Assembly (NCBI RefSeq): GCF_036327415.1
Contig: NZ_CP123961.1
Span: forward strand, 868,001-932,000
DNA length: 64,000 bases
Direction: 5' to 3'
Source of the DNA: Bartonella grahamii subsp. shimonis
Lineage (GTDB): Bacteria; Pseudomonadota; Alphaproteobacteria; Rhizobiales; Rhizobiaceae
How positions within the stretch are numbered: position 1 is the stretch's first letter; every line of letters begins with the position of its first letter. The notes under the pieces are model-generated. The model saw nothing but the letters and a program-made list of their open reading frames with translations. It was not told the DNA's origin and searched no databases. This document shows, one piece after another, positions 7,545 through 20,649 of the stretch. Position numbers and translations under genes: made by a program.

Positions 7545-8343
7545 ATGGCTATAAAGCATCGCACCGAGCCAAATTTCTTGGGTATATGTCAGAGTATCAC
7601 CTTAACCGCACCGATGCGTGCTTGCGAGAAAATCGATATTTCTCACTGGGATTTAGCCCATAACTATTTGAAACAGGGCTTGTTACTCGAAGCCTTGCAT
7701 CAGTTTTCAGTTCGATTCGCCACCGTGGTGGCTAAAAACTCGGATCTTACGTATCGCTATCTCCCTGTTATGGTTGAACAGTTTTTCTCTACCACCCATT
7801 TTGATAGCGATCGGTTACGCGCTGAAGGACATATTGAACGCATTAATGAGGCCTACCGTATTCACTGTAAGGCCAGCCCATACGACAATGGCAAGGTCGT
7901 TATTGCGCAGACAATCATCATTGTCAGTATAAGGTCTGCTTCCCTGGCTCGTGTTCTGAGAAAGCCGCTCTTCCATTACTAGGCGATTTATGTAAGATTT
8001 CCTCCGTAACCGGAGATTCTTGTACTTTTTCCTTTAATGTGCATCACCCGCTTTTTGAGGAACATTTCCTCTCCCGCGTCGTATGTCCTGGTTCACTATT
8101 GATTGAGATGGTTCTGGCTTTGGCCACGCAGGGTAGGGCGAAAAATATCGCATCTGTTGCGCTGAAAAAGTAAAGTTCATTGAAGCAGTTTATTCGGGAG
8201 ATACCTATCAGTTGACCATTAAACAGGATACAGAGTGTGAACCAGGTGGCGTTTTTTATATTCATACGGAAACTAAAAAACGAAGCACTTGCGGTAAGTT
8301 TTCTATCAAATATAAAAAGGAGGATGCACCATGTTTAACATAA
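7545..8343 (+). pseudogene. Tandem hot-dog (FabZ-like) dehydratase, broken
   Basis: The frame at 7545-7982 has a hot-dog pattern: YLKQGLLLEALHQFSV, then LRAEGHIERINEAYRI and NGKVVIAQTIIIV. A one-base shift near 7960 leads into a second domain reading FNVHHPLFEEHFLSRV and CPGSLLIEMVLALA, very like FabZ HPxFxGHFPxxPxxPGxLxxEA. This hits a TAA around 8170. After another shift it resumes VKFIEAVYSGDTYQLTIK and stops at 8343. Two dehydratase-like domains of a fatty-acid or polyketide-type pathway therefore stand in tandem, perhaps as one fused gene. At least two shifts make it non-functional as it stands. Confidence 0.6.
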
Positions 8344-8777
8344 TAATCTCTTTTATTCCGTGGAGTATTTACTCCTGGGTTATCAATGGAAACGTTTTAA
8401 CTCTGGTCGAACGCTCTCTCATCTTAACTGTGATTTTATTGTCTATTATTGTTGTGAATATTAAAATTGTCCGACAGGGAGAACCCGTGATGATTACTAA
8501 CATTCTGACAGTTATTGTTCTGTTTGTTAATTATTTCGTTGGATGGTCTACACTTTTACTGAACTACCTTACAGTTTTTTGCTATCTGTCACTTGCTCTG
8601 GTTTCATTGATTAGCTTGCTGGTAAAGAAACCCTTTACCATTTTTTATGCTAGTGCTAGCCTCAACGCTGCTAAAAAACGCAAACATATCCTATTGTATC
8701 TCATCAATAAATATATTACATGTATCTGGGTAATCATCATGCGATATTTTTATCGCGTCAAACACCATGGTGCATAA
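8331..8777 (+). CDS. Hydrophobic membrane protein of unknown role
   Basis: A 148-residue protein with four or five membrane segments; aaaggagg lies 7 nt before ATG 8331. The segment LLVKKPFTIFYAS resembles a short motif seen in several small membrane proteins near cell-envelope genes, but I cannot assign a family. Its start overlaps the end of the broken dehydratase gene, so it belongs to the same former operon. The C-terminus lies in a 21-bp tandem duplication that repeats its stop. Confidence 0.6.
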   Translation: MFNIIISFIPWSIYSWVINGNVLTLVERSLILTVILLSIIVVNIKIVRQGEPVMITNILTVIVLFVNYFVGWSTLLLNYLTVFCYLSLALVSLISLLVKKPFTIFYASASLNAAKKRKHILLYLINKYITCIWVIIMRYFYRVKHHGA

Positions 8778-8798
8778 GTCAAACACCATGGTGCATAA
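8757..8798 (+). repeat. 21-bp tandem duplication
   Basis: Two exact adjacent copies (8757-8777, 8778-8798), each containing the palindrome CACCATGGTG and a TAA. The first TAA ends the upstream gene; the second precedes ATG 8800 by 2 nt. Confidence 0.9.
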
Positions 8799-8799
8799 T

Positions 8800-9303
8800 A
8801 TGTCATTGTTTAACATTCTGACCGGAACCCCTTTATGGGTCTGGATTTTGCTTATTTTTCTCATTACGATGGGAATAAGCGCATTGAAAGATAGGGAAAT
8901 GGGGGTTAACCGCCTTTTTCTATTGCCGTTAATCTTTCTTTTTTTGGGCGGAAGCGATGTGATTAACGAGCTGGCGTTCCCGCGCTGGGGAGCAATCTCA
9001 ATGTTGGCGGGGCTTATGATCGGCGTTGGCGTTGGCTGGTTGCTCTGGCGTGCCGCTCCGCGTTTAAAAATCAAAGAGGGAACGGATTTAATTATTCGGC
9101 CTGGTACGCCGTTGCCACTGATATTTATTCTTATCACTTTTGTCATCAAATTCACATTGATTGTTTTTCTCAAGGTTGAACCTGATTTGAAATATGCATT
9201 TGATTTTAACCTTCTTTTTGGTCTTTTAAGTGGGTTCACTGGTGGTGTGTTTTGGGGCGGCACATTAAATTTATATATAACATTTCGAAAGAATCCAAAT
9301 TAA
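8800..9303 (+). CDS. Small membrane protein, DUF6622-like
   Basis: A 167-residue protein with about five membrane segments. Its N-terminus NILTGTPLWVWILLIFLI followed by ALKDREMGVNRLFLLPLIF matches, from memory, a widespread proteobacterial family of unknown function (DUF6622-like). I use ATG 8800, where that conserved N-terminus begins; earlier in-frame ATGs (8767, 8788) lie inside the tandem duplication. It ends the citrate-synthase/hot-dog module. Confidence 0.65.
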   Translation: MSLFNILTGTPLWVWILLIFLITMGISALKDREMGVNRLFLLPLIFLFLGGSDVINELAFPRWGAISMLAGLMIGVGVGWLLWRAAPRLKIKEGTDLIIRPGTPLPLIFILITFVIKFTLIVFLKVEPDLKYAFDFNLLFGLLSGFTGGVFWGGTLNLYITFRKNPN

Positions 9304-10317
9304 TCCCTATACCATTAGCTGTGGGTGTTTCCCATCAGAACTATCTCAATAGAAGCTTATTCCTAACAACAACGCTGCATACAAACGCAGCATTGCCTCA
9401 TAGTTTCAGATTTTTTTGTCCCAGCGCGTGAATACGTGACGGAAGTGATATATCTGACTATGCCTCCCTTGGGGGCAGAGCGAGCCTAAAGGTTTAGAAT
9501 GCTATGAGTTTAAGCTAGCTGGACTTTGAGCAGATGGTTGATCGCTAATGGTAAATCATTTTGTTTTACGATTCAAAAAGAGGATAGTGATGGTCTCATT
9601 GGCCTAGGTGGGCAAGAGAACTCTTAGCTTGGCAATGCGTCAACAGTTTGTAGAACTATATTATGGACCCCATACGCAAAGCGGTTGCTATGATGCCATG
9701 ATGCTTTTGTCAAGCATTGTGATATGGTAAGAACCGGTGTTTAAGGGTGCAACTGCGGTCACTGCACGACCCAGTAGCATTACGTCTGAGTATTTAGGAG
9801 CGGTAAACTCCGTACAGGCTACGCGTACAATATGTGAAGCACGCTTGCGGGAATTAGTGTGTCATTATTGCGTTGTGCACGCAACCCTCTAGCTAGTACT
9901 TCATTGGTAAGGCTGTTTTTTGAAGTTGGTTGTAATTATCTGTGTGTTTTTAAAGAGAACGTTAGCACCGATGTATCGCGTGCAGTACCAAAAAATCTTC
10001 CAAAAATTTATTGAAAATACTGAAAATGGATGTGCAAGACGAACAAAGGCTTGCTAAGGATATTTTATCAACAATTGTAACTGCTTGGGGGCATAATATT
10101 GTACAAAAAAAATGCATGGCATGAAGTCCAAAAAACGAATAAAGGCGCATTGCGCTTCTCCTTTAAGAACTGGGTATCTCCTCTTAGCTTAATGAGTTCT
10201 CATTATGCATCTTTTACGCAAGATTTGCGATGGAAAGACTTGACAAAAAAAATCAATACGTTTTGTTTAAAAGATCCGGGTTTAATATGCCCTTCAATAG
10301 GGAAGGGTATTTCACAA
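9304..10317. other. Decayed stretch before the MATE gene
   Basis: About 1 kb without an intact gene. Around 9740-9890 one frame reads GATAVTARPSSITSEYLGAV and on to VHATL and a stop, which looks like former coding sequence that I cannot identify. A copy of repeat R2 lies at 9954-9990. A 76-codon frame at 10099-10329 overlaps the MATE start and has no supporting signal. Confidence 0.45.
9954..9990 (+). repeat. Dispersed repeat R2, copy 2
   Basis: Begins agagaacgttagcaccgatg and runs through a CGCGTGCAGTACCAA core shared with the copies at 7031 and 20899. It lies 330 bp upstream of the MATE gene. Confidence 0.6.
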
Positions 10318-11660
10318 TGTTTGTTGTGATGAAGAAATTACTCCTTCTTGGTATGCCACTGGCTATTGGTTTTATCTCTCAGATGATGATTTCCTTCACA
10401 GATGCGGCACTTGTAGCGCATTTAGGCGTTCAAGCCTTGAGTGGTACAATGTTAGCTCTAAGTATGTTTAGTTTTGTTATGTTGTTGGGACTAGGGATTA
10501 TTACCGCAGTTGCACCAAAACTTGCGGAAAGTTTTCGCAAACAAGATAGAGATGCATTGAAGGCATGGTTTGATCAAGGAATATGGCTTTCCCTTTTGAT
10601 TGGAATAATAAGTGCAATCATTTTACTCAATACGAGGAATATTTTATGTCTTCTCGGCCAAAATGAGGCAATTGCCAATATAGCGCAGAAATATAATAGT
10701 GGCGCTGCTATAGGGGTAGTGTTTTTTTATCTTTATGTAAATAGCCGTGGATTACTGTCAGCAATTGGTCATCCAAAGCCCTTAACTTGGATTATGCTTG
10801 CCGCTATTCCTGTAAATTTTCTCATCTCTTGGCTGCTTATTTTTGGTATAGGTCCTGCAAGCGGATTTGGTGTCTTTGGTGCTGGAATTGCGAGTAGTTT
10901 GGTCCGTATTTTGATTGTTATGGCAGTAGCAATAATTCTGTCCCGCAATTCTACTTTTAGTTCCTTTCACTTTAATTATTTAAGACCAAAGTTAGAAATT
11001 TCACGAATAATACAATTACTGTTCATAGGACTTCCCATTGGTATCCGTATTCTTATTGCGGAGGGCTTTCCTTCTGTTATTGCCTTCATGATTACAGCTT
11101 TTGGGGTCGAAGCTTTGGCTGCGCATACGATTGGAATGCGTCTTGATATGCTTATTTCTGTGGTAGCTTTGGGGATTTCCAGCGCAGCTGCGACCATAGC
11201 AGCGTGGTATCAAGCCGATCGGAATCATATGGCTCTAAAACAGTTACGTATGAATGTCACAATTTTTGCTATAGCTTATGTCTTGTTTTTATCAGGGGGT
11301 GTTTATTTTTCTTATGAATTCATTCTTTCAATCATCTTTGACATTTCTTCAGTCCACGTTATTGTTTTCTCTTGGGAGTTGCTTCCGTTTATCTTATTGT
11401 CTTTTGCTTTTGGCACTTTAGGAGCCATGCTCAATGGCATACTTGTGGGTTTGCTTGATACGTTTTGGCCAACAATTGTTGTAACAATAAGCTATTGGGG
11501 GATAGGCTTATTTGGGGGAGCTCTCATGGCACATTTTTTTGAATATGGTTTTATGGGTTATTGGCTTGGCATGATTGGTGCCAGCTTAATCGTTTCTATC
11601 TTTAACTATATGCGCGTGGGTTATTTAATAAAACGCAATTCTATGTTTGGGGCGAAGTGA
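10318..11660 (+). CDS. MATE family multidrug efflux transporter (NorM-like)
   Basis: An inner-membrane antiporter that exports cationic drugs or metabolites against Na+ or H+. About 447 residues with twelve membrane segments in two homologous halves. MATE signatures include LGMPLAIGFISQMMISFTDA at the N-terminus, then TRNILCLLGQN, GLPIGIRILIAEGFPS and AAHTIGMRLDML in the second half. The open frame reaches back to TTG 10230. I favour ATG 10318, which has gggaaggg upstream and begins close to the family's first helix; ATG 10330 is another option. It stands alone in the island, with R2 upstream and R1 directly at its stop, so it may have arrived as a cassette. Its substrate is unknown. Confidence 0.88.
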
Positions 11661-11803
11661 GTGTTATAAAAGCACTGTAAGCACGAGCTGTGAAAGCATA
11701 GCACCTCATCCCGTCCATAGGGGCTGTTTTGCTTCTATGGAGATAACAATATAGGTTACAAAATTGGCTTAATATGAAAAAGAAGTGCCTTTGTTTGTAT
11801 CCT
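11657..11803 (+). repeat. Dispersed repeat R1, copy 1
   Basis: The sequence from the MATE stop codon (tgagtgttataaaagcactg) to about 11803 is imperfectly repeated at 20646-20775. Shared blocks include GTAAGCAC, AGCTGT, TTGTTTGC-like and CTTCTATG.GATAACA followed by an A-rich stretch. Both copies begin at a gene's stop codon. From 11804 to 12001 I see nothing but AT-rich sequence. Confidence 0.55.
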
Positions 11804-12001
11804 TAATATTATCTATTGAGTTTTAAGGTAATATGAGTTTATTAAAATCATTCGGATTCAATTTAAGAGTAAGTTTAGTAAATTGGAATGGTTTAATACC
11901 ATAAAAAATGACTAGAAAAAACGTGCCTATATTTATACGCCGTTGAGGAGTCATTTAAAAAAGTTATTGTTTTTATAAGTCATTACAATCGCGGTGCTAA
12001 A

Positions 12002-12437
12002 ATGCATGCGTTTGTTAAAACAATCGCTGCCGCTGACGATGTTATTCTTGCAAGTTCTGTTTATACGGGTCTTATTCAGAGGGATAAAGAATGCTCTTGA
12101 TAATTTAGATTATCATTCTTTTGGGGATAAAGCTGTTGGTCTTTTCTCTCATGGCAGTACAGCCAAAAATGCGCTACTGTCATGTGAATATTTGGGAACA
12201 GTTGTGCATACGCTTTATGGACAAGCACTGCAATGTCAAGTTGCTTCAGCTAAAGATGATTTTGCGTCTGAGAATGAAAACCATACATGGAGACTTAGCA
12301 GCGAAGATGCACAAGCTCGCTGCACATATCTTGCTGATGAAACGTATTATAGATTTTTAAAAGTGACACCCCTATGGACGGGCTTGAAATATTGCATATT
12401 ATGGGGGGCATTCGCCTGCACATGCATTTTCGTGTAG
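12002..12437 (+). pseudogene. NADPH-dependent FMN reductase (SsuE-type) remnant
   Basis: ATG 12002 reads MHAFVKTIAAADDVILASSV then YTGLIQ, matching the ADGVILASPVYTG segment of flavodoxin-fold FMN reductases. A one-base shift leads into GIKNALDNLDYHSFGDKAVG and LFSHGSTAKNALLSCEYL, matching the KNALDWL...GKPV segment and the following strand. The frame degrades after 12360. The N-terminal third is missing and the gene is shifted, so it is dead. Its link to neighbouring genes is unknown. Confidence 0.6.
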
Positions 12438-12611
12438 GTTGACTGAGCGGCGCGCTTGCCTTATTAGCGAAGCCGCTGCGTATTGTTCATGTTTTTGGCT
12501 CTAATGCAGAGGATAAAATAATCTCTGGATGTGCGCATCATAATAAGATTGACGCCACATCTGTAAAATTAGGTCGGAAAAGGCGACCAAATGGCTGGCG
12601 GTGATCAACGA

Positions 12612-12869
12612 GAAAAGTTTATGATCATGTGATTTGTGAGAGCCGTATTGAGAAAGAGTTTGCGCAAAATCTCGATAATGACCCGGATGTAAGATTATTT
12701 TTTTAATTGCCAAGGAGTTTTAAAATTGCAACGCTAATCGGCTCTTATACCAGATTAGGCGGTATTAGAGCGTGAGAGCGAACAAAAGCTTTATTTTGCG
12801 CATTTTGCGGCGCTTGAGATGAGTTTTGAGTGTAGTGCATAGCCGGTGACAAATTGGCGTGAATATAAG
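12612..12869 (+). pseudogene. Type III restriction enzyme (Res) C-terminal remnant, copy 1
   Basis: The frame reads KVYDHVICESRIEKEFAQNL then DNDPDVRLFF, the conserved VYDHV..DS..EKEFA...LFxKLP block found near the endonuclease domain of type III Res subunits. After shifts, LYFAHFAALEM and PVTNWRE follow, which parallel the end of the second copy at 14915-15573. It is only a small, frameshifted C-terminal piece. Confidence 0.6.
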
Positions 12870-12928
12870 TGCACTTTGCCCGAAGCGGCGCATGATTTTC
12901 CAAGTGCTGCGGTGGTTGTTGCAGAATG

Positions 12929-13333
12929 ATTGGTGCATGAAATACTTAATCTCGGCGCGGGGAGGAGAGCAAAGCTTTTTATATCAAAATAATAAATTGA
13001 CAAAGCTAGCTATAAAGTAGCTATAATGTGTACTTCATGTGAAATTTAATTGTTTTCATTAGCATTGGTGCACGAAATACTTAACCTTGGCGCGGGGAGG
13101 ACAGCCAAACTTTTTATATCAAAATAATAAATTGACAAAAGGTAGCTATAAAGTAGCTATAATGTGTACTTCATATTAAATTTAATTGTTTTCATTAGTA
13201 TTGGTGCACGAAATACTTAATCTCGGCGCGGGGAGGACAGCCAAACTTTTTATATCAAAATAATAAATTGATAAAAGCTAGCTAAAAAGTAGCTATAATG
13301 TGTACTTTATGTGAAATTTAATTGTTTTCATTT
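12929..13333 (+). repeat. Three tandem ~135-bp repeats carrying a promoter
   Basis: Copies start at 12929, 13064 and 13200 (periods 135 and 136) and differ at few positions. Each begins with the tail of a former gene (reading LVHEILNLGAGR..AKLFIS), then carries TTGACA or TTGATA, a tandem TAGCTATAA-like direct repeat and TATAAT. The array leads straight into the 40-residue peptide gene at 13352. Three stacked copies could raise or modulate its transcription. Confidence 0.9.
13268..13299 (+). promoter_or_regulatory. Promoter of the 40-residue peptide gene (proximal copy)
   Basis: TTGATA at 13268-13273 and TATAAT at 13294-13299, spaced 20 nt, 52 nt before ATG 13352. Equivalent elements in the other copies are TTGACA 12997-13002 with TATAAT 13022-13027 (19 nt), and TTGACA 13132-13137 with TATAAT 13158-13163 (20 nt). 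The long spacers and the repeated TAGCTAWAA-like motif between the boxes suggest activator or repressor dependence. Confidence 0.6.
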
Positions 13334-13351
13334 AATACAGGAGGTAAAATT

Positions 13352-13474
13352 ATGAAAACTAAAGATGTGTATAAACCACTGAAAAAAATTCAAATTAAGC
13401 GGGTTGATGTTACTTCGCTTAAAGCCCAAACAAGTGAGCAGAAAATGACTGCTCGACGCTCCCTTCTGAATTGA
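13352..13474 (+). CDS. 40-residue peptide ending in Asn, MccA-like precursor candidate
   Basis: A near-perfect ribosome-binding site (caggaggt, 7-8 nt from ATG 13352) opens a 40-codon gene. The product is Lys/Arg-rich, with no signal peptide or Cys, beginning MKTKDVYKPLKKIQIKR and ending ARRSLLN. It is followed by a 15-bp perfect hairpin and then an MFS exporter, and preceded by three tandem promoters. In microcin C systems a tiny MccA gene ending in Asn is separated by a hairpin terminator from mccB, and an MFS pump (MccC) exports the product. Longer Asn-ending MccA peptides are known. The match is in layout and C-terminus; the adenylating enzyme MccB is not in this window, so the function stays a hypothesis. 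Confidence 0.7.
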   Translation: MKTKDVYKPLKKIQIKRVDVTSLKAQTSEQKMTARRSLLN

Positions 13475-13485
13475 GGTTAAAAATA

Positions 13486-13526
13486 TATAAAGCTGGCAGC
13501 AAAAAAAGCTGCCAGCTTTATAGCTT
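13486..13526 (+). terminator. 15-bp perfect hairpin between peptide and MFS genes
   Basis: TATAAAGCTGGCAGC (13486-13500) and its exact complement (13508-13522) flank an A7 loop, followed by gctttt. It is either a terminator that allows partial read-through into the MFS gene, or an mRNA-stabilising 3' end for the peptide transcript. In the E. coli mcc operon a hairpin at the same place sets the high mccA-to-downstream ratio. Confidence 0.85.
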
Positions 13527-13538
13527 TTGGATATATTA

Positions 13539-14789
13539 ATGACGATAGATTATGAAGTTAAAAAGTTGCTCTATGGCTGTGCGGCAATGAGCGGGGTTCG
13601 GCTGATTACAGGTTCATTCCATGCTTTTTTTTTCTTGTCTATGGGCGTTAGTATGACACAGTTAGCTTTATTGCAAATTGTGTTTAGCGTAGCTATTTGT
13701 ATTTTTGAAGTGCCTTGTGGGATTTTAGGAGATAAAATCGGCGTTAAACAAAATGTTATCTTATCATGTTTCTTTTTTTCGCTCTTTTTCTTTTTATGTA
13801 TCTACGCGCCTAATCTTTTTGTCTTAATTCCGGCAGAAATTATTTATGCTTTAGGCTTTGCTTTATGTTCTGGCGCTGATAGCACATGGATTAAAGGCTT
13901 AATTGATAGCGGTGGTTACAAGGGTAGTTTGATCTATCACCAAGTAAACGCCTATAAGCGGGAACTAACGGCATTCATGAATATGGTTGCTGGTGCGCTA
14001 GGTGTTCTTATTGTTTTGTGTATGGATAATTATCAGTCGGCATATTATTTTTGTTCTTTCGGGTTTCTCGTGCTTGTATTCTTGTTTAGTCGGGTGACGG
14101 GGATAGCTATTGCATCCGTTTCGGGCAGTAAGCCAATAAAATCGGGTTCTTTGTTGCATGCAACAGAAGCTTTTGCTTATTTAGTTACCTCAAAGATCGG
14201 GTTGTATTATATATTGATATGTGGTTTTATTGTTGCCGCATTGCAGCCTATATTTCATTTTTGGCAACCTTTTATTTTGGGACAAACAGGAGTATTAGAC
14301 AATGCAACAGGAAAGACTAAAATTCTTATTCTTGGTCTATGCTTTGTGTCTTATACTCTCGTAAAATACTTATTTAATCGCTTTGTAATTAAATATCTTA
14401 TGCAAAAATACGCTCCTATGGCGATAACTTTGTGCTCACTCGTCCTGAGTGCTGTTATTATGCTTGCTCTGCTCCTCGTTGCAAACAGTTGGGCCCCCCT
14501 TATTTTATTCACTGTATTTCACAGTTTTTTTTCTGTCCCTATGACGCAGTTTGAAGCAGAATTTTTTAAACATATTCAACAAAAGAATGCAAATACGGTT
14601 TTATCCATTGTTAGTTTTCTTGCGCGTATTTTTGGTATTTTAGCGCTTGTGCTGATTGGTTGGTTGGCGAATAATGTTTGTATAGAAGCAGCTTTTTGTT
14701 TCGCCTTGCTTTGTATATGTTTAGTTATTCCGCTTAATTTGGCCTGGCTTTATACTGATAAAAAGTTAATAAAAAACGAAGAGCTCTGA
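13539..14789 (+). CDS. MFS exporter next to the MccA-like peptide
   Basis: A 416-residue major facilitator protein with about twelve membrane segments. It has an MFS-like loop after helix 2 (GILGDKIGVKQN, equivalent to the GxLaDrxGrr motif) and EVPCGILGD in helix 2. It starts at ATG 13539 (TTG 13527 also in frame), 64 nt past the peptide gene and 16 nt past the hairpin. Position suggests that it exports the peptide or its modified product, as MccC does. Apart from scattered remnants, nothing intact follows for 1.7 kb. The MFS assignment is secure; the substrate is inferred from neighbours. Confidence 0.82.
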   Translation: MTIDYEVKKLLYGCAAMSGVRLITGSFHAFFFLSMGVSMTQLALLQIVFSVAICIFEVPCGILGDKIGVKQNVILSCFFFSLFFFLCIYAPNLFVLIPAEIIYALGFALCSGADSTWIKGLIDSGGYKGSLIYHQVNAYKRELTAFMNMVAGALGVLIVLCMDNYQSAYYFCSFGFLVLVFLFSRVTGIAIASVSGSKPIKSGSLLHATEAFAYLVTSKIGLYYILICGFIVAALQPIFHFWQPFILGQTGVLDNATGKTKILILGLCFVSYTLVKYLFNRFVIKYLMQKYAPMAITLCSLVLSAVIMLALLLVANSWAPLILFTVFHSFFSVPMTQFEAEFFKHIQQKNANTVLSIVSFLARIFGILALVLIGWLANNVCIEAAFCFALLCICLVIPLNLAWLYTDKKLIKNEEL

Positions 14790-14914
14790 GAGAGAAAATA
14801 CAATTGAATAGGGACTTGCCCGTGACTTACATAAAGACACAAGAAAAAATAGTGTGTGGGTCATCTTATATGGATTTAGTCGAAATTAATAGCTGTCCAT
14901 CGTTTTAAGTAGAG

Positions 14915-15573
14915 ATGCTTATCGATTTGAATACGCCAAATGATTGTACTGCTATTAGCCAGAAATATCGCGAACGAGCATACCAAGAGGCTTATGATAT
15001 TGATGTTTTGCTAAATAGTGGGCACGTATTAGATTTTGCAAAAAAACGTAAGCTTTTTTAGAGTGCGCGGAGGAAATCCTCAATAAAGCGTATGTCAATC
15101 TTACTATTGCTGGTATTAAATATTTAACACTAGTTAGCCAAGACTATAGTGTGCAAGAATGTTTTGCAAGTAGCGAACTTTTGGCGAATTTAGAGCGTAC
15201 AGCGCTGGTGAGTGAGAAGAGTGTATATGATCATGTGGTTTATAAGAGTAATATTGAGAAAGAATTTGCGCAAAATTAATGATAATGCCTCCGAAGTAAA
15301 ATTATTTTTTAAATTGCCAAGGAGCTTTAAAATCGTGACGCTCATAGGCTCTTACACGCCGGATTTTTGCGTGTTTTAGAGTGAGATGGCGCGCAAAAGC
15401 TTGATTTTGTACTGGAAACAAAAGGAACGAATAGCGAGTTTGATTTGCGCCTTAAAGAAATGCTGAAGATTAAATGCGGCAAGGCGCATTTTACCGCCCT
15501 TAAGACTGGTGTGGTGTTTAACGAGGCACCGGTGATGAGTTGGCGCGATTCTAAAGCGGGGGGATGGCGGTAG
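14915..15573 (+). pseudogene. Type III restriction enzyme (Res) C-terminal remnant, copy 2
   Basis: From ATG 14915 the reading is MLIDLNTPNDCTAISQKYRE and ends in HVLDFAKKRKLF at a TAG. In the next frame ECAEEILNKAY follows at once, then SEKSVYDHVVYKSNIEKEFA, stop, FFKLPRSFKI, GSYTPDF, LDFVLETKGTNSEFDLRLKE and IKCGKAHFTAL to a TAG at 15571-15573. VYDHVVYDS, GTYNPDW, FVxETKG and KIxCGKAHF are the conserved blocks of the Res nuclease domain. At least four shifts or stops are present and the helicase part is gone. Together with copy 1 this shows that two type III systems, or a duplication, once stood here. Confidence 0.72.
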
Positions 15574-16074
15574 AGAGAGGGGGGGGAGGAGTGGGCGGCA
15601 CGAATGACGCTGTCTTTAGTTGCGTACCGCCAAGCTAATTTTGTGCTTTGCGAAATTTGCCAAGGCTTTTGGACGTACTGTGTTTACTGCGTAATAACAT
15701 CTTATGAATACCATGTAGAAGGCGCGCAGAAATGGGTGATTGCGTGTCTAGCTTCCCAATGCCGTAATTAAGTACAGCCACATAATGAGATAGCTCTTCA
15801 ATATCGTCAGTCGCACTGATATTTTTTCTTTATTTTCAAACAATAATAGGTCAGATGGTAACGATTATGTCCTTTCTATCTGAGAAAGAGTAGCACCGCT
15901 TGCGTATATGCACGAGTAAAAGTCAATCAACATTGGTCTGAGGTAAAAAACGCAAATTATTTCTAATACACCTAAGGATTTCATAGCTTGCTCTAACGGT
16001 TTATATAAAACCGCCCTTTTTAAAGGTGGATTGGGTGGCAAATTTATTGGGATATAGGCTTTATGAATCTCTCA
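15551..16074 (-). pseudogene. Fic family protein remnant (N-terminal two thirds)
   Basis: On the minus strand from about 16074 the frame reads YIPINLPPNPPLKRAVLYKP then LEQAMKSLGVLE and SQIERT-stop-SLPSDLLLFENKEK, the SSQIEGTQSSLxDLL block of DUF4172-type Fic proteins. After a one-base shift come DDIEELSHYVAVLNYG, SPISARLLHGIHKMLL, LGKFRKAQN-stop-LGGT and ASFVPP, corresponding to tPGEFRxSQNWIGGT..ArFVPP. In both motifs a codon has become a stop (Q to TAA, W to TAG). The catalytic HPFxxGNGR block is absent downstream; the remnant meets the Res remnant tail to tail. Fic proteins AMPylate targets; this one cannot. Confidence 0.75.
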
Positions 16075-16560
16075 AACTAAGCTTTCTACTATGCAGGTCC
16101 TAAGGCGTGATTGCATATATGGTCGTATCTGTTGCTGCGTTGTGTAGGTAGAGATCCTAAATTAGGAAAGGAGGACTGCTCTTTTAATTACAAAGGAAGA
16201 ATACGGCGCGTAAGTGCAGCAAAATGTATTTTGAGGAGCAGTAAAGGGGTGAGGCATTTGATGTCCAGCGGATGACCGATTAACTGGAGTATAAGTGGGC
16301 ATTGCTAGGGCGGATTTTAGTTAAGAATTGCGCTCCGTACGCCATAAGCTCTCTGCATCCTTCATATAGGCGTTGAGATCATCGCCCAATCAACGTAAAG
16401 GGGCTATTTTGCCTTTAACGCTTGTTTGGCTGCTTCCATTAGTGCCGCTGGCTCTATCAGCCATTACGGTTATAATTTCCTCGTCCAAAGAACAGATCAA
16501 TTGATTGCGTAATAGGGTATGTGTGCCTTTTTTGACCGTGTCTTTTTTAAAAAGCAGCCG
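16075..16560. other. Decayed stretch without a recognisable gene
   Basis: Nearly 500 bases with short coding-like pieces on both strands, for example RNQLICSLDEEIITVMADRA on the minus strand near 16450-16510. None has a start, ribosome-binding site or known motif. I identify nothing functional. Confidence 0.45.
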
Positions 16561-17778
16561 TTACCTCCTGGCAGGGTTGGGTGTTATATGATCAGCCTGC
16601 CAAAGAAATGGAAGCGTTATTGCGATAGCCACCAATAGTAGTCCAGCGATAAAGGCGGCAGCAAATTGCAATGATATAAAAGAACCAAGGACGCCGACCA
16701 AAAAGCTTCCGACTGGCATTCCAGCATAACCGATCACCCGAAAAGCAGAATTAGCTCGCCCGAGAAGTTGCTTTGGTGTGAGGCGCTGCCTGAAGGCGGT
16801 AACACCAATAAACCATAAGCTTGCTCCAACGCCAGCGATAAAGGTGACGCCCCATACGACGACAGCACTTTTTGAAAAGGCTGGAATCAGCAGCAAGACA
16901 ACCGTTCCTAAACCGTCAGTGAGAACAGCTAGGCGCACCGGTGCATAGCGTATACGCGGCGCAAATAGGGCACCTGCCATTGTACCAAGCGCGTAGGCTG
17001 CAAACATCACGCCATATTGGCTGCTATGTAGGCCCAGATACCGATCGTCGGTAACGAAGAAGATGAACGAGGTTAGGAATGCTCCAAATACCACCGATAG
17101 AAAGAATGTGAGTAATGTAAGGGAGGTAAGATGCCGATTTGAAAAAATAAAACGAAAGCCGGCAATGATATAACGGAAAGAGATATTTTCTTTATCAGGT
17201 GTTGGCGATGTCGGAACAGCACGGCGAGCGGTAAAAATCAATGTGATAAAAAGCAGGATTAACAGGCCAAGAAATAGCAGTGTGCTATGCGCTAAAATGC
17301 TGCTTGTTATAACAGGGGCAAGAAAATATGAGACCCCGAAATCTAAAAACAAGACAATTGAGTAGAAGGTCATCAATCGCTCTCCCTCCATGATAAGTGG
17401 TGGAATCGTCATTATATAAGCTTCGGCAGAAACGACGATGAATCCAGCAATGGTTGCATAGAAGAAAATTTGTTCGGCTGGAGCAATCTGTATCATGAGC
17501 AGTACGAACAGTACAATATGCAGTAGCATGAAGATGAGGAGAGCCGAGGTGGCAAGTTTTATTTTGTCGCAGCGATCAAGTAAAGTGCCTGCAAGGATGC
17601 CGAAAATTGGCCACGCTAATGAGAAGAGACCTTGCGCCCAACTTACTCCGACTACGCCATATCCAGATTGTCTTGCTAATAGCGGGATGGCAGTGTGCAA
17701 AGCACCGCTGAGTAAGGCGAGCAGACTAACGGTTAGGCAAAAATAGCGTATGTTCTTATTGGCAAAAAGCGTGAACAT
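16561..17778 (-). CDS. MFS exporter in operon with a radical SAM enzyme
   Basis: A 405-residue MFS protein with twelve membrane segments, resembling the EntS/MFS_3 type of drug or siderophore exporters (GTLLDRCDKIKLATSALLIF after helix 2, LGTMAGALFAPRIR in the second half). ATG 17778 has aaggag 6 nt upstream; an in-frame ATG at 17823 would overlap the radical SAM gene. It starts 10 nt after that gene's stop, so the two form one operon. The operon seems richer in G+C than its surroundings, suggesting horizontal arrival. It probably exports whatever the radical SAM enzyme makes. Confidence 0.85.
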   Translation of the reverse strand: MFTLFANKNIRYFCLTVSLLALLSGALHTAIPLLARQSGYGVVGVSWAQGLFSLAWPIFGILAGTLLDRCDKIKLATSALLIFMLLHIVLFVLLMIQIAPAEQIFFYATIAGFIVVSAEAYIMTIPPLIMEGERLMTFYSIVLFLDFGVSYFLAPVITSSILAHSTLLFLGLLILLFITLIFTARRAVPTSPTPDKENISFRYIIAGFRFIFSNRHLTSLTLLTFFLSVVFGAFLTSFIFFVTDDRYLGLHSSQYGVMFAAYALGTMAGALFAPRIRYAPVRLAVLTDGLGTVVLLLIPAFSKSAVVVWGVTFIAGVGASLWFIGVTAFRQRLTPKQLLGRANSAFRVIGYAGMPVGSFLVGVLGSFISLQFAAAFIAGLLLVAIAITLPFLWQADHITPNPARR

Positions 17779-17788
17779 TCTTTTCTCC

Positions 17789-19210
17789 TTAAGATGCCAC
17801 ACAGGTTTCCGCTGGTCCATCAAGTACGGCGGTTGTATTCAGCATGTTTGCGACATAGCCGTCCAAGATATTCCTATCTTCCTGAGGTAGAAGAAAATAC
17901 ATAAGGTTGGAATACCATTGCCAACCACGCTGAGTCAGCTGGAGATCGTTATCACTTTCTGCGATGAGACCTGCGCCTATAAGCTGTTGTAGGTTATTGT
18001 ATACAAAAGAGGGGAGTGCGGTCCAGTCAATTCTTTCTTTTTGGACATAGCCGTTATAAGGTAGCCGCATACACAAAGCCTTGGAGGCTTGTTGCTCCGC
18101 TGATACCCAATTGTAGTATACTTTGGATTTGCCTTTAAGTTGTATGTCGGTAATGTATCCGCTTCTACTGGGATTGGCTCGTGTGACGAGTGAGCCGAGA
18201 AGCGACATTGCTGACGCCCCGAAGCCAACCACATAATCGTCATGATAATCATGCAAATATTTGTGATAGCGGAAATAATTAGCTGAACTCGTTTTAGCGA
18301 GCGTTAGAGGAGTGTTATTGGCAATTTTGATATAGGAATGTCCATTACACGGCGCATAGCCGCAGCTGCGCATAACGATGTCGCTAAATAAGCGAAGCAT
18401 CTGTCGATGTTGTAGGCTGGATGGCTTTAGCCCTTTTTGTGTGTAAGACTTATGCAGTTGCGACGTGATAGCCAGATTGTTGATTGCATAGAGGTTGATG
18501 GTTTCAGGATGAAGCTCGCTGGCTTGCTTCAAATCGTATAATAGTTCTTCAGTTTGCTGGCTGTGCATGCCATATAGTAGGTCGAAACCGACATGTCCAA
18601 TGATCTCTTGTGACCAAGCCACGGTATTGTTGATTTGTTCACGTGTTGAGGTGAGGTTAAACAATGATCGGAAACGCTCAATGAAACTCTGTATACCGAA
18701 GCTGATCCGGTTAACGCCGATCTCACGGGCAGCATAAAGTTTATCACGTGTGACGCTCTTCGGTTCGCTTTTCAGTGTAAACTCGGTTAAGGAAGAAAGC
18801 TCAAATTCGGCATGCAATACTTTTCCGATGTGTCGGATATTATCTGCGGACAAAAGCGACGGTGTGCCGCCCCCTATATAGATGCTGCGGATGGGCCCTC
18901 TAAGCGAGCGAATGAAATTTCCTTTGGTTCTGATCTCTGTGGTAAGCGCTGACATATAAGATTCGATTTGCTTAACGTGCTTGTAGGCCCCTTTCTGAAA
19001 GGGACAGAAGGAACAGATGGTTTCGCAAAAGGGAATATGCAAATAAAGAGAAATGGTACGCGCTTGTGGAATCTGCTTACTTTGCGCTAGTTTATTAAAG
19101 TCTAGGTAATCGTAAAATTCATTTGAAATAGTGCGAAATAGCGGATATATGAAGCTGTAAATCGGCTTGAGTTGATCGAACTTTTCAAAAGGATGATCCA
19201 CGAGTTGCAT
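17789..19210 (-). CDS. HemN/HemW-like radical SAM protein
   Basis: A 473-residue radical SAM enzyme of the coproporphyrinogen-oxidase-like group. LYLHIPFCETICSFCPFQK holds the CxxxCxxC cluster motif (Cys62, Cys66, Cys69). IYIGGGTPSLL (110-120) binds SAM, RISFGIQSF is near 168-176, GFDLLYGM follows, and a winged-helix-like C-terminus reads NNLQQLIGAGLIAESDNDLQ. Relatives include HemN, HemW, the haem-degrading ChuW/HutW and class C methylases of peptide antibiotics. The layout before the cluster (about 60 residues) is closest to ChuW/HutW or class C methylases, but I cannot choose. gggggagg lies 6 nt before the ATG. Upstream is a seven-codon ORF under a palindromic promoter, downstream an MFS exporter. 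Either peptide modification or haem chemistry is possible. Confidence 0.8.
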   Translation of the reverse strand: MQLVDHPFEKFDQLKPIYSFIYPLFRTISNEFYDYLDFNKLAQSKQIPQARTISLYLHIPFCETICSFCPFQKGAYKHVKQIESYMSALTTEIRTKGNFIRSLRGPIRSIYIGGGTPSLLSADNIRHIGKVLHAEFELSSLTEFTLKSEPKSVTRDKLYAAREIGVNRISFGIQSFIERFRSLFNLTSTREQINNTVAWSQEIIGHVGFDLLYGMHSQQTEELLYDLKQASELHPETINLYAINNLAITSQLHKSYTQKGLKPSSLQHRQMLRLFSDIVMRSCGYAPCNGHSYIKIANNTPLTLAKTSSANYFRYHKYLHDYHDDYVVGFGASAMSLLGSLVTRANPSRSGYITDIQLKGKSKVYYNWVSAEQQASKALCMRLPYNGYVQKERIDWTALPSFVYNNLQQLIGAGLIAESDNDLQLTQRGWQWYSNLMYFLLPQEDRNILDGYVANMLNTTAVLDGPAETCVAS

Positions 19211-19284
19211 AGCTTACCTCCCCCAACTTCTTAACTTGCACTATATTATTGACGGGCGACTGATTATCCTATCACCCGAGTGTA

Positions 19285-19308
19285 TTACCAAAGATTTTCA
19301 CGGAACAT
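19285..19308 (-). CDS. Seven-codon ORF MFRENLW with perfect ribosome-binding site
   Basis: On the minus strand AAAAGGAGG, spaced 7 nt, precedes ATG 19308; the reading is MFRENLW then TAA. It lies 20 nt downstream of a promoter-like palindrome and 74 nt upstream of the radical SAM gene in the same direction. A Shine-Dalgarno this good in front of a tiny ORF is unlikely by chance. It could be a peptide substrate for the radical SAM enzyme, comparable in size to the heptapeptide MccA, exported by the MFS pump. It could also be a leader peptide that controls the operon by attenuation. It lacks the C-terminal Asn of MccA. No gene finder would report it. Confidence 0.55.
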   Translation of the reverse strand: MFRENLW

Positions 19309-19328
19309 AATGAATCCTCCTTTTGTAG

Positions 19329-19355
19329 AAGTTATATGTATTATACATATAACTT
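19329..19355 (-). promoter_or_regulatory. 12-3-12 perfect palindrome containing the -10 box
   Basis: AAGTTATATGTA and TACATATAACTT flank TAA (minus-strand reading). The centre forms TATAAT, placing a consensus -10 box exactly in the dyad; no good -35 lies 17 nt upstream. This is the usual geometry of a repressor operator over a promoter driving the heptapeptide / radical SAM / MFS operon. The regulator is not identifiable here. It is followed by a ribosome-binding site rather than a T tract, which argues against a terminator. Confidence 0.65.
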
Positions 19356-19519
19356 ATCATACGAACGGGCTAGCTTGTTTAAGAGGCAATGTAAAAATAA
19401 AAATATAAAAGAACTTTCTCTTGCAGCCTTATGGTCTGATATTGTAATTGGTATCCTGTTTTACGTGGTCGGGCTATGAATGCCTAGGGCGAGAAAAAGC
19501 AGGTATTTTAATGGACGTG

Positions 19520-20169
19520 CGGGGCATCATTGTTATGTTGCTGGGACTTTGGATTTGCGTCTGGTCATGAAATATCATTAGCGCAAAAAGATGGTTTTAA
19601 AGGTAGGTATATATTTTTAATATCCCTGTAAAACTATCGAGAAGAGATAGAATTATCTATTAGAAAACATATAAATGTCCAGTGTGATAATATTATTGAA
19701 TTACATGACATCACCGCTCTTGCCCGCTATTTTGACATATTGCCTAAAATCTCATTGAGATTGTGCCATGTACTGGCAAACGGGGATAGATCGCGTTTTG
19801 GGATGACAGCGGCGGAGTTACATGCCGCATTATCTTTGCTAGAATCCAATAAGATTAGGCTTAATGGGGTGCCTTTGCATGTGGGCTCTAATTTGAATTC
19901 GACTGAGTTAATAGTATCCACCTTAAACTAAGGTTGGAAAGGATATTTACGCATTGAAGGATCAGATAAGTTTTATCAGTCTAGGCAAGGGATATCCGAC
20001 TTCCACAGCGTTCTGCGGTGCCGTGACGGTCAATGACGAACACCCTCGTAAAATTTATGAGGCATTGTCACAATTGGGTTGTGATTTACATAAGCTTACG
20101 GTAATTATCAAACTTGGGCGTATTATATCTAAAGATTATGGTTATTTTTTTCAAATATTAGCTCTATAA
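19520..20169 (+). pseudogene. PLP-dependent fold-III decarboxylase remnant
   Basis: Across several frames the sequence follows the diaminopimelate/ornithine decarboxylase pattern: FGFASGHEISLAQKDGFKGR near 19550 (GxGFDvASxxEl), ELHDITALARYFDILPKISL, then SRFGMTAAEL, GVPLHVGSNLNS (GLhfHvGSq), and KLGRIISKDYGYFF (EPGR..v..aGy) at 20108-20149. The PLP-lysine segment upstream is missing and stops interrupt it. The MccE N-terminal domain of microcin C operons belongs to this fold and acts with MccD, and a methyltransferase remnant follows here too. It may equally be an unrelated amino-acid decarboxylase. Confidence 0.6.
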
Positions 20170-20281
20170 AAGAGCAGAATGGTACGAACTTAATTACAAT
20201 CTGCACAGTAACTAGATCATAAGTCAAAGTATGTGAAAGCAACTGATACAAAAAAGATTTTACGATGGTGGAAGATCAAGG

Positions 20282-20649
20282 ATGAAGGATTTTAGTTCAA
20301 AGGAAATTGATATCATTGTGTTCTCATATCCTGATTTTTGGGATTTTTAGATATAAATAACACACCTCCTAGTGGGCTGGAGACTATCAAATATTGGATC
20401 ACACATGACGCAATTAGCAAAAAATCTTATCTATTGGATTTAGCGTGCTCTACTGAATTCCCAGCTCTAAATATTGTGTGCAAAGTACAATGTCAAGCGG
20501 TGGGAGTTGATATAAGTGCAGAGTCTGTAGCATCCGCTCAGAACAAGGTTGATAGCTCTGTTATGCAGGGGATGGTTAAGTTTCATGTCGGAAATGCTAA
20601 ACGTATGTCTTATCCTGAAAATACATTTATGCATATTACGGCGGGGTGA
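20282..20649 (+). pseudogene. SAM-dependent methyltransferase-like remnant
   Basis: ATG 20282 reads MKDFSSKEIDIIVFSYPDFW and stops; a one-base shift joins the frame from about 20338. That frame has SYLLDLACSTEFPALN (degenerate motif I, DLACSTGFxxLN), GVDISAESVASAQNKV (motif II) and VKFHVGNAKRMSYPENTF (motif III), then stops at 20647-20649 where a full domain would go on. The second half is lost. Just after a PLP-decarboxylase remnant it recalls the MccD/MccE pair, which builds the aminopropyl group on microcin C. That link is inference. Confidence 0.55.

Follow-up and report, generated by a model that had tools for sequence, protein, structure and literature searches.

Front half of a probable decayed long-precursor microcin C cluster in Bartonella grahamii subsp. 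shimonis

Introduction

The 64,000-nucleotide stretch of Bartonella grahamii subsp. shimonis DNA analyzed here (hereafter the window; positions without a prefix refer to it, and the features described lie on its plus strand) very probably holds what is left of a long-precursor microcin C cluster that has decayed, namely its front half. As shown by comparison with related loci, the ancestral gene order was mccA (encoding a 40-amino acid precursor), a hairpin, mccC (an MFS exporter), mccB (a ThiF protein with a methyltransferase domain), mccS (CmoA-like), and one or two small genes. The same comparison shows that other sequence has taken the place of the segment that began at about codon 75 of mccB and ended close to the 3' end of the final gene.

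Microcin C operons have been noted in Bartonella before and were reported to be inactivated in B. quintana and B. henselae (available part of PMC10949449), and "mccB proteins" appear in a list in the available text of the B. florencae genome paper (PMC3910550). Our finding is therefore of modest novelty, as neither the kind of cluster nor the presence of mcc operons in Bartonella is new. Among the matches listed by our literature search, which covered subscription literature only to a small extent, there was no report of the long-precursor ThiF-methyltransferase type in Bartonella, of its graded decay, or of both types together, and the parts of PMC10927894 and PMC7857480 that were available do not mention Bartonella mcc loci. 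The finding points to a predicted product of this vector-borne genus. Bartonella presents stages that run from an intact enzyme (protein record P0001) through broken clusters to orphan peptide-pump pairs, and these graded stages thus form a natural series in which to ask whether exporter and immunity outlive biosynthesis.

Results

A short precursor gene with an invariant C-terminal asparagine codon

The mccA gene (13352–13474, stop included) was identified by its open reading frame and its conservation. The ATG at 13352 opens a 40-codon ORF (MKTKDVYKPLKKIQIKRVDVTSLKAQTSEQKMTARRSLLN) with the C-terminus ...RRSLLN and Asn as last residue, and the stop codon ends at 13474. It is preceded by a Shine-Dalgarno sequence (CAGGAGGT, 13338–13345). 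An earlier note on this DNA, written from the sequence alone, had described a 40-codon gene with a Shine-Dalgarno sequence and an ...LLN end, a 15-bp hairpin, and an MFS gene, and all of these were found where it had placed them. The note had also let its reading depend on conservation of the C-terminal Asn, which was borne out: the codon AAT and the stop TGA at the end of mccA are invariant in all 17 Bartonella loci that have the peptide region. This ending is kept even in those copies of mccA that are frameshifted or interrupted by a stop, and codons 33–39 directly before it are each variable across the same 17 loci (55 of the 123 ORF columns are invariant). The gene is open from the start to the Asn codon in 7 of these loci, those of the genome of the window (G000, a single contig of 2.19 Mb; the other G-numbers denote the genomes compared) and of G013, G038, G040, G046, G047, and G050. 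Searching 5.8 billion proteins with the peptide produced 7 matches, of which the 3 named ones are all from Bartonella. The 6 distinct 40-amino acid variants in the database, one of them that of the window, all end in Asn, and the seventh match is a 38-amino acid protein that is out of frame before its end. Precursors encoded near MccB homologues are described as ending in Asn and having a strong Shine-Dalgarno sequence, and one MccB clade goes with Asn-ending precursors of 17–56 amino acids (available part of PMC6495379). The mccA gene of the window has this length, this C-terminal residue, and a strong Shine-Dalgarno sequence.

Repeat comparison revealed three tandem copies of a block with a period of 136 upstream of mccA (13002–13332). 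Their 59-nt cores (13002–13060, 13138–13196, and 13274–13332) are 95–97% alike, and the last copy forms the region directly 5' of mccA. The core motif occurs three times in the window, once in 12 of the 13 other loci, and is absent from G027, so that the triplicated block was found in the window alone among 14 loci. A consensus scan detected no plus-strand sigma-70 promoter in the repeated block. Three Rfam matches in the leader were rejected, all of them scoring under the respective gathering score (26.4/60, 24/35, and 20.9/55 bits).

Two homopolymeric runs coincide with changes of frame. An A run in the peptide gene (13382–13388) is a frame-change site in G019, G027, G032, and G108, among others, and a T run early in the MFS gene (13625–13633) is one in G027, G032, G046, G050, and G106. 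These runs could be phase-variable or simply mutation hot spots.

A hairpin follows the precursor gene

Folding and conservation identified a hairpin with a perfect 15-bp stem and a 7-nt loop (13486–13522), separated from the mccA stop codon by a spacer of 11 nt. The region 13475–13535 folds at -27.2 kcal/mol, compared with a mean of -12.0 (sd 2.5) for shuffled sequences (z -6.0), and none of 200 shuffles folded as well. The stem is the longest of 6 terminator-like stems in 12600–14900, a region for which shuffles average 2.2. A hairpin was present 3' of the peptide gene in all 14 loci examined for it, being cut to a 9-bp stem in G013 and G027 (where 6 and 15 of 200 shuffles, respectively, fold equally well). 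Over the 12 full-length copies, 96.7% of the cells are paired, a percentage that 332 of 500 shuffles reach. The changes in these 12 loci are one-sided only, and no two-sided compensatory change was found among them, so covariation gives no proof of the hairpin. In the E. coli cluster, mccA and mccB are separated by a terminator hairpin (available part of PMC6495379). A hairpin after mccA is present in the window as well, and by analogy with E. coli it may act in termination.

The precursor gene is coupled to an MFS gene in Bartonella

The next gene, mccC (13539–14789), encodes an MFS protein (PF07690, 6.1e-12) and thus supplies the exporter of a long-precursor cluster, export of the peptide being predicted by analogy. 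Twelve of 12 named loci encoding relatives of this protein belong to Bartonella (B. grahamii, B. tribocorum, B. queenslandensis, B. florencae, B. gabonensis, and others). Named relatives outside the genus are 50–55% identical and come from Serratia fonticola and Pantoea cypripedii (50% in the latter). In P. cypripedii, the contigs listed for the MFS protein and for an MccB homologue are equal in size (4,354,992), which suggests that the two genes are neighbours.

We searched for the MFS gene in 71 Bartonella genomes (61 from a set of 101, and 10 more), counting as window-type those copies whose best piece was at least 66% identical and setting aside distant MFS hits at about 22–47%. A window-type copy was found in 18 genomes. 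The peptide region lies directly 5' of it in 17 of the 18 loci (in the eroded G107 locus, it gave no match 5' of the MFS gene), and the pair thus occurs together in 17 of 71 genomes, which is more than chance. The MFS gene is stop-free over its full length in 7 loci (G000, G001, G013, G024, G038, G047, and G108), and the 11 other copies are damaged by a stop, a frameshift, or fragmentation, that of G019 only near its end. Peptide and MFS genes are both open in 4 genomes (G000, G013, G038, and G047). Three genomes have an intact MFS gene beside a broken peptide gene (G001, G024, and G108), and 3 have an open peptide gene beside a broken MFS gene (G040, G046, and G050).

Relatives that keep more of the cluster

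In G024, the gene order is mccA - hairpin - mccC - mccB - mccS, followed by one or two small genes that have no match better than one to YqcI/YcgG under the cut-off. G032 has a shorter, broken version. The MccB of G024 combines a ThiF domain (7e-17) with a C-terminal methyltransferase domain (1.1e-10), both above the Pfam cut-offs. Among solved structures, MccB entries are the top three hits of the G024 MccB piece (1.3e-12). A 143-amino acid piece of G024 mccS matches CmoA (TIGR00740, 1.6e-26; 93.5 bits against a full-length cut-off of 193.3). With this combination of a ThiF-methyltransferase MccB and a CmoA-like MccS, G024 shows the signature described for the Yersinia-type class, in which the peptide is cytidylated and carboxymethylated. 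The G024 cluster is itself damaged, since stops interrupt its mccB, and its mccA no longer has a start codon and has acquired a stop. At the DNA level, a complete and intact cluster was found in none of the 18 loci, and mccD and mccE were not recognized among the scanned pieces of the G024 cluster. An intact MccB-class protein of 550 amino acids, P0001, has 13 member sequences from unclassified Bartonella outside the compared genomes and is known as a protein record alone, without DNA context. Over 553 columns, P0001 shares 48% identity with a ThiF-methyltransferase protein of Yersinia similis. The next matches of the G024 MccB piece after P0001 are from Serratia marcescens (51%) and Yersinia similis (44%).

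These relatives settle two points of the earlier note. An MccB homologue should occur in relatives that have the peptide, and indeed MccB or its remains adjoin the same peptide and MFS genes. The order peptide-mccB-MFS for which it proposed to look has to be corrected, because relatives show mccA-mccC-mccB, as in G024.

The window retains a 5' stub of mccB

Identity to G024 and P0001 revealed a stretch with the 5' stub of mccB at 14762–15013; roughly its first 10 codons lie before or across the mccB start and are still part of the end of mccC. The stretch is 89% identical to G024 over 84 residues, and the stub, which contains one TAA, is 94% identical to residues 1–49 of P0001. Counted from the start inferred in G024, the stub comprises about 74 of ~577 codons, a full size taken from the Serratia and Yersinia proteins. 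It has no start codon at the G024 start position, an in-frame stop, and a cut 3' end. A bifunctional MccB with ThiF and methyltransferase domains is therefore represented in the window by a 5' stub only.

The sequence joined to the stub (15014–15410) was delimited by alignment and by a repeat. From 15223 on, it repeats a stretch located 5' of mccA (12617–12798), and 15014–15222 was assigned to it by position only. Because the G024 copy of the repeated stretch has a marginal match to the PF19778 endonuclease domain (23.9 bits against a cut-off of 23.4), we read the joined sequence as a putative restriction-enzyme remnant. In the alignment, judged by eye, the junction at about 15014 is common to 7 of the 13 stub-bearing loci (G000, G011, G013, G017, G027, G040, and G047). 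The far side of the lost mccB-mccS segment is marked by a 3' stub of the final cluster gene (20203–20292, the last 30 codons), which was recognized by comparison with G024 and G032 and matches YqcI/YcgG under the cut-off. A similar far-side junction is present in G011, G013, and G027. A carboxy-SAM synthase gene, mccS, was not found in the window: the pieces present in G024 and G032 have no match in 8001–20500. Remains of mccB lie 3' of the MFS gene in 17 of the 18 loci (none was found there in G046), and mccB is broken or missing in all 18. The earlier note had proposed a locus for a peptide-nucleotide antibiotic and either loss or relocation of its mccB. The loss stands and the relocation does not, because the window still contains the 5' part of the gene, as far as about 15013.

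The segment between the two stubs (16561–20200) encodes an MFS protein with a match to EntS and a radical SAM protein with a match to HutW/HemN, both under the cut-off. It also contains part of a gene for a PLP-dependent decarboxylase (PF02784, 24.2 bits with the cut-off at 23.4). Siderophore decarboxylases and MccE share the PLP-dependent decarboxylase fold family (available part of PMC7857480).

The remains of mccB also bear on a reading that does without microcin C, namely that the 40-amino acid ORF and the hairpin are an attenuator, with a leader peptide, of a multidrug MFS pump. A leader ORF and a hairpin are known to precede some pump genes, and the sole NCBIfam match of the window MFS is to tetracycline efflux, at 24.2 bits against a cut-off of 750. 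However, mccB remains follow the MFS gene in nearly every locus, a fixed C-terminal Asn after a variable stretch is unexpected in a leader peptide, and equal-sized contigs are listed for the MFS and MccB homologues of P. cypripedii. We thus consider an attenuator extremely improbable.

A second, canonical mcc locus carries a split mccB

The search of the whole genome for a ThiF-like MccB that the earlier note had proposed was successful in part: it disclosed a canonical locus with a frame-split mccB, and no intact MccB was found in this genome. The second locus (G000:C1:2044986–2047362) lies 1.16 Mb along the contig and consists of a 7-amino acid MccA ending in Asn, a hairpin, MccB, and an MFS gene, in this order. 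Its mccA is the ORF MDHSECN (G000:C1:2044986–2045009), its hairpin has a z of -2.9 (1 of 200 shuffles folded as well), its MccB matches the E. coli MccB structures at 3.4e-102, and its MFS protein is 33% identical to that of the window. In G000, the mccB of this locus is split between frames near an adenine run. Asn-ending heptapeptides of the MDH type were found 5' of canonical MccB in 6 of the 15 loci examined, G000 included (MDHSECN, MDHLECN, MDHMGCN, MDHRGFN, and MDHIGFN twice), and the other 9 loci, mostly broken, are without one.

The existence of this locus raises the question of whether the window pair is still in use, its mccB having moved rather than been lost, so that the canonical MccB would modify the 40-mer in trans. 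The peptide and MFS genes are indeed both open in G000, G013, G038, and G047. However, canonical MccB is intact only in G013, being split in G000 and broken in G038 and G047, and therefore a trans enzyme does not explain the open pair in the other three genomes. Moreover, canonical MccB is 31% identical to P0001, fits the E. coli enzyme for 7-amino acid precursors far better, and has its own heptapeptide. Modification in trans is thus highly improbable.

Two other ThiF-related genes were rejected as partners. The gene at 206 kb is of a third ThiF type and is broken, and that at 715 kb is a housekeeping MoeB (325 bits to NF004281, cut-off 266). The third ThiF type, which in G024 is accompanied by an AAA ATPase and a different MFS protein, belongs to a third Bartonella ThiF cluster composed of an AAA ATPase, ThiF (about 370–380 amino acids), and MFS, observed at G000:C1:206011–206738 (ThiF broken), L085:3931–6990, and L136. 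A Pantoea ananatis plasmid has MFS, AAA ATPase, and ThiF in a row. A further cluster with a ThiF protein, L074:8252–14000 in G019, lies beside the B. tribocorum copy and contains, by eye, cupin/JmjC-like proteins, a peptide-binding protein, and an MFS protein; it is possibly another modified-peptide pathway.

An MccF-type S66 immunity peptidase gave no match in the genome at E 0.001. Two PmbA/TldD proteins are encoded in the genome, so TldD/TldE are represented, but the match is weak because the same search is positive in 10 of 14 control genomes. The title of a 2017 paper reportedly links TldD/TldE proteases to McC-Yps.

Selection on the exporter after loss of mccB

After biosynthesis was lost, the MFS gene could have persisted as that of a pump giving immunity to microcin C-type compounds of neighbours, with the peptide as a passenger. 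Such a role is compatible with the origin of the window pair in a decayed cluster and is no alternative to that origin. It is consistent with an MFS gene that is stop-free in 7 of 18 loci when mccB is intact in none, and with the 3 genomes that combine an intact MFS gene with a broken peptide gene. The upstream block, triplicated in the window alone among 14 loci, also speaks for selection on the pair. The dN/dS ratio between the window MFS gene and the six other intact copies (G001, G013, G024, G038, G047, and G108) is 0.13–0.25, that of the neighbouring MATE gene is 0.26–0.32 in the 4 of 6 comparisons where it was countable, and the MFS ratio was under the mccB-stub ratio in all 15 pairs of six genomes, although these pairs are non-independent. 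However, the dN/dS ratio of the dead mccB stub is also below 1 (0.17–0.82), and thus probably much of the divergence arose before mccB was lost, or else recombination spread the junction. When all pairs are pooled, MFS and stub differ little (0.37 and 0.42, respectively), and when the window is compared with G046 and G110, the MFS gene has a higher ratio than the MATE gene. In addition, most MFS copies are damaged (11 of 18, G019 only near the end), and the peptide gene is open beside a broken MFS gene in G040, G046, and G050. An immunity pump is unlikely, and we consider it unlikely as well that the orphan pair came under selection after the loss of mccB, the exporter (and in some genomes also the peptide) serving as self-protection or as a cheater's answer to peptidyl-cytidylates of co-infecting Bartonella that have an intact cluster, as P0001 would imply.

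Discussion

The window contains the precursor, the hairpin, and the exporter but neither an intact MccB nor MccS, which identifies it as a remnant of a long-precursor microcin C cluster and not a working one. Because no intact MccB was found in the genome, the microcin product is probably no longer made there.

By analogy with characterized relatives, in the complete cluster MccB would couple a nucleotide, cytidylate in those relatives, to the C-terminal Asn of MccA and carboxymethylate the coupled nucleotide with a donor made by MccS. MccC would then export the modified peptide, which after uptake and proteolysis would inhibit aspartyl-tRNA synthetase. Most transcripts would end at the hairpin behind mccA, leading to an excess of precursor over exporter. 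The earlier note had expected the terminal Asn to be adenylated. Because the enzyme belongs to the bifunctional long-precursor class, a carboxymethylated cytidylate would be expected instead, and we infer that the ancestral product was a peptide-carboxymethylcytidylate.

The closest of the known systems in kind are McC-Yps of Y. pseudotuberculosis and the system of Nocardia vaccinii. The Y. pseudotuberculosis and Nocardia MccB enzymes are described as bifunctional with a C-terminal carboxymethyltransferase domain, MccS as a carboxy-SAM synthase, and the Nocardia MccB as having cytidylated and carboxymethylated its 21-amino acid precursor in vitro (available part of PMC9239234). The Bartonella cluster resembles them in its long Asn-ending precursor, bifunctional MccB, CmoA-like MccS, and exporter. 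It differs in that no mccD or mccE was recognized among the scanned G024 cluster pieces and in that, in the window, mccB is a stub and mccS is absent. In Bartonella, mccC lies between mccA and mccB. The carboxymethyl-cytidine microcin C of Bacillus amyloliquefaciens, compared by description only, likewise has an MccB with a carboxymethyltransferase domain and MccS, with four key genes, but its precursor is 19 amino acids long compared with 40 in the window (available part of PMC12250964). E. coli microcin C7 (mccABCDE) shares the Asn-ending peptide, the hairpin terminator after mccA, and the pump MccC (available part of PMC6495379). Unlike the cluster of the window, it is a heptapeptide adenylate made by an MccB without a methyltransferase domain, with the order A-B-C. 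It is the second locus of G000, and not the window locus, that resembles the E. coli system.
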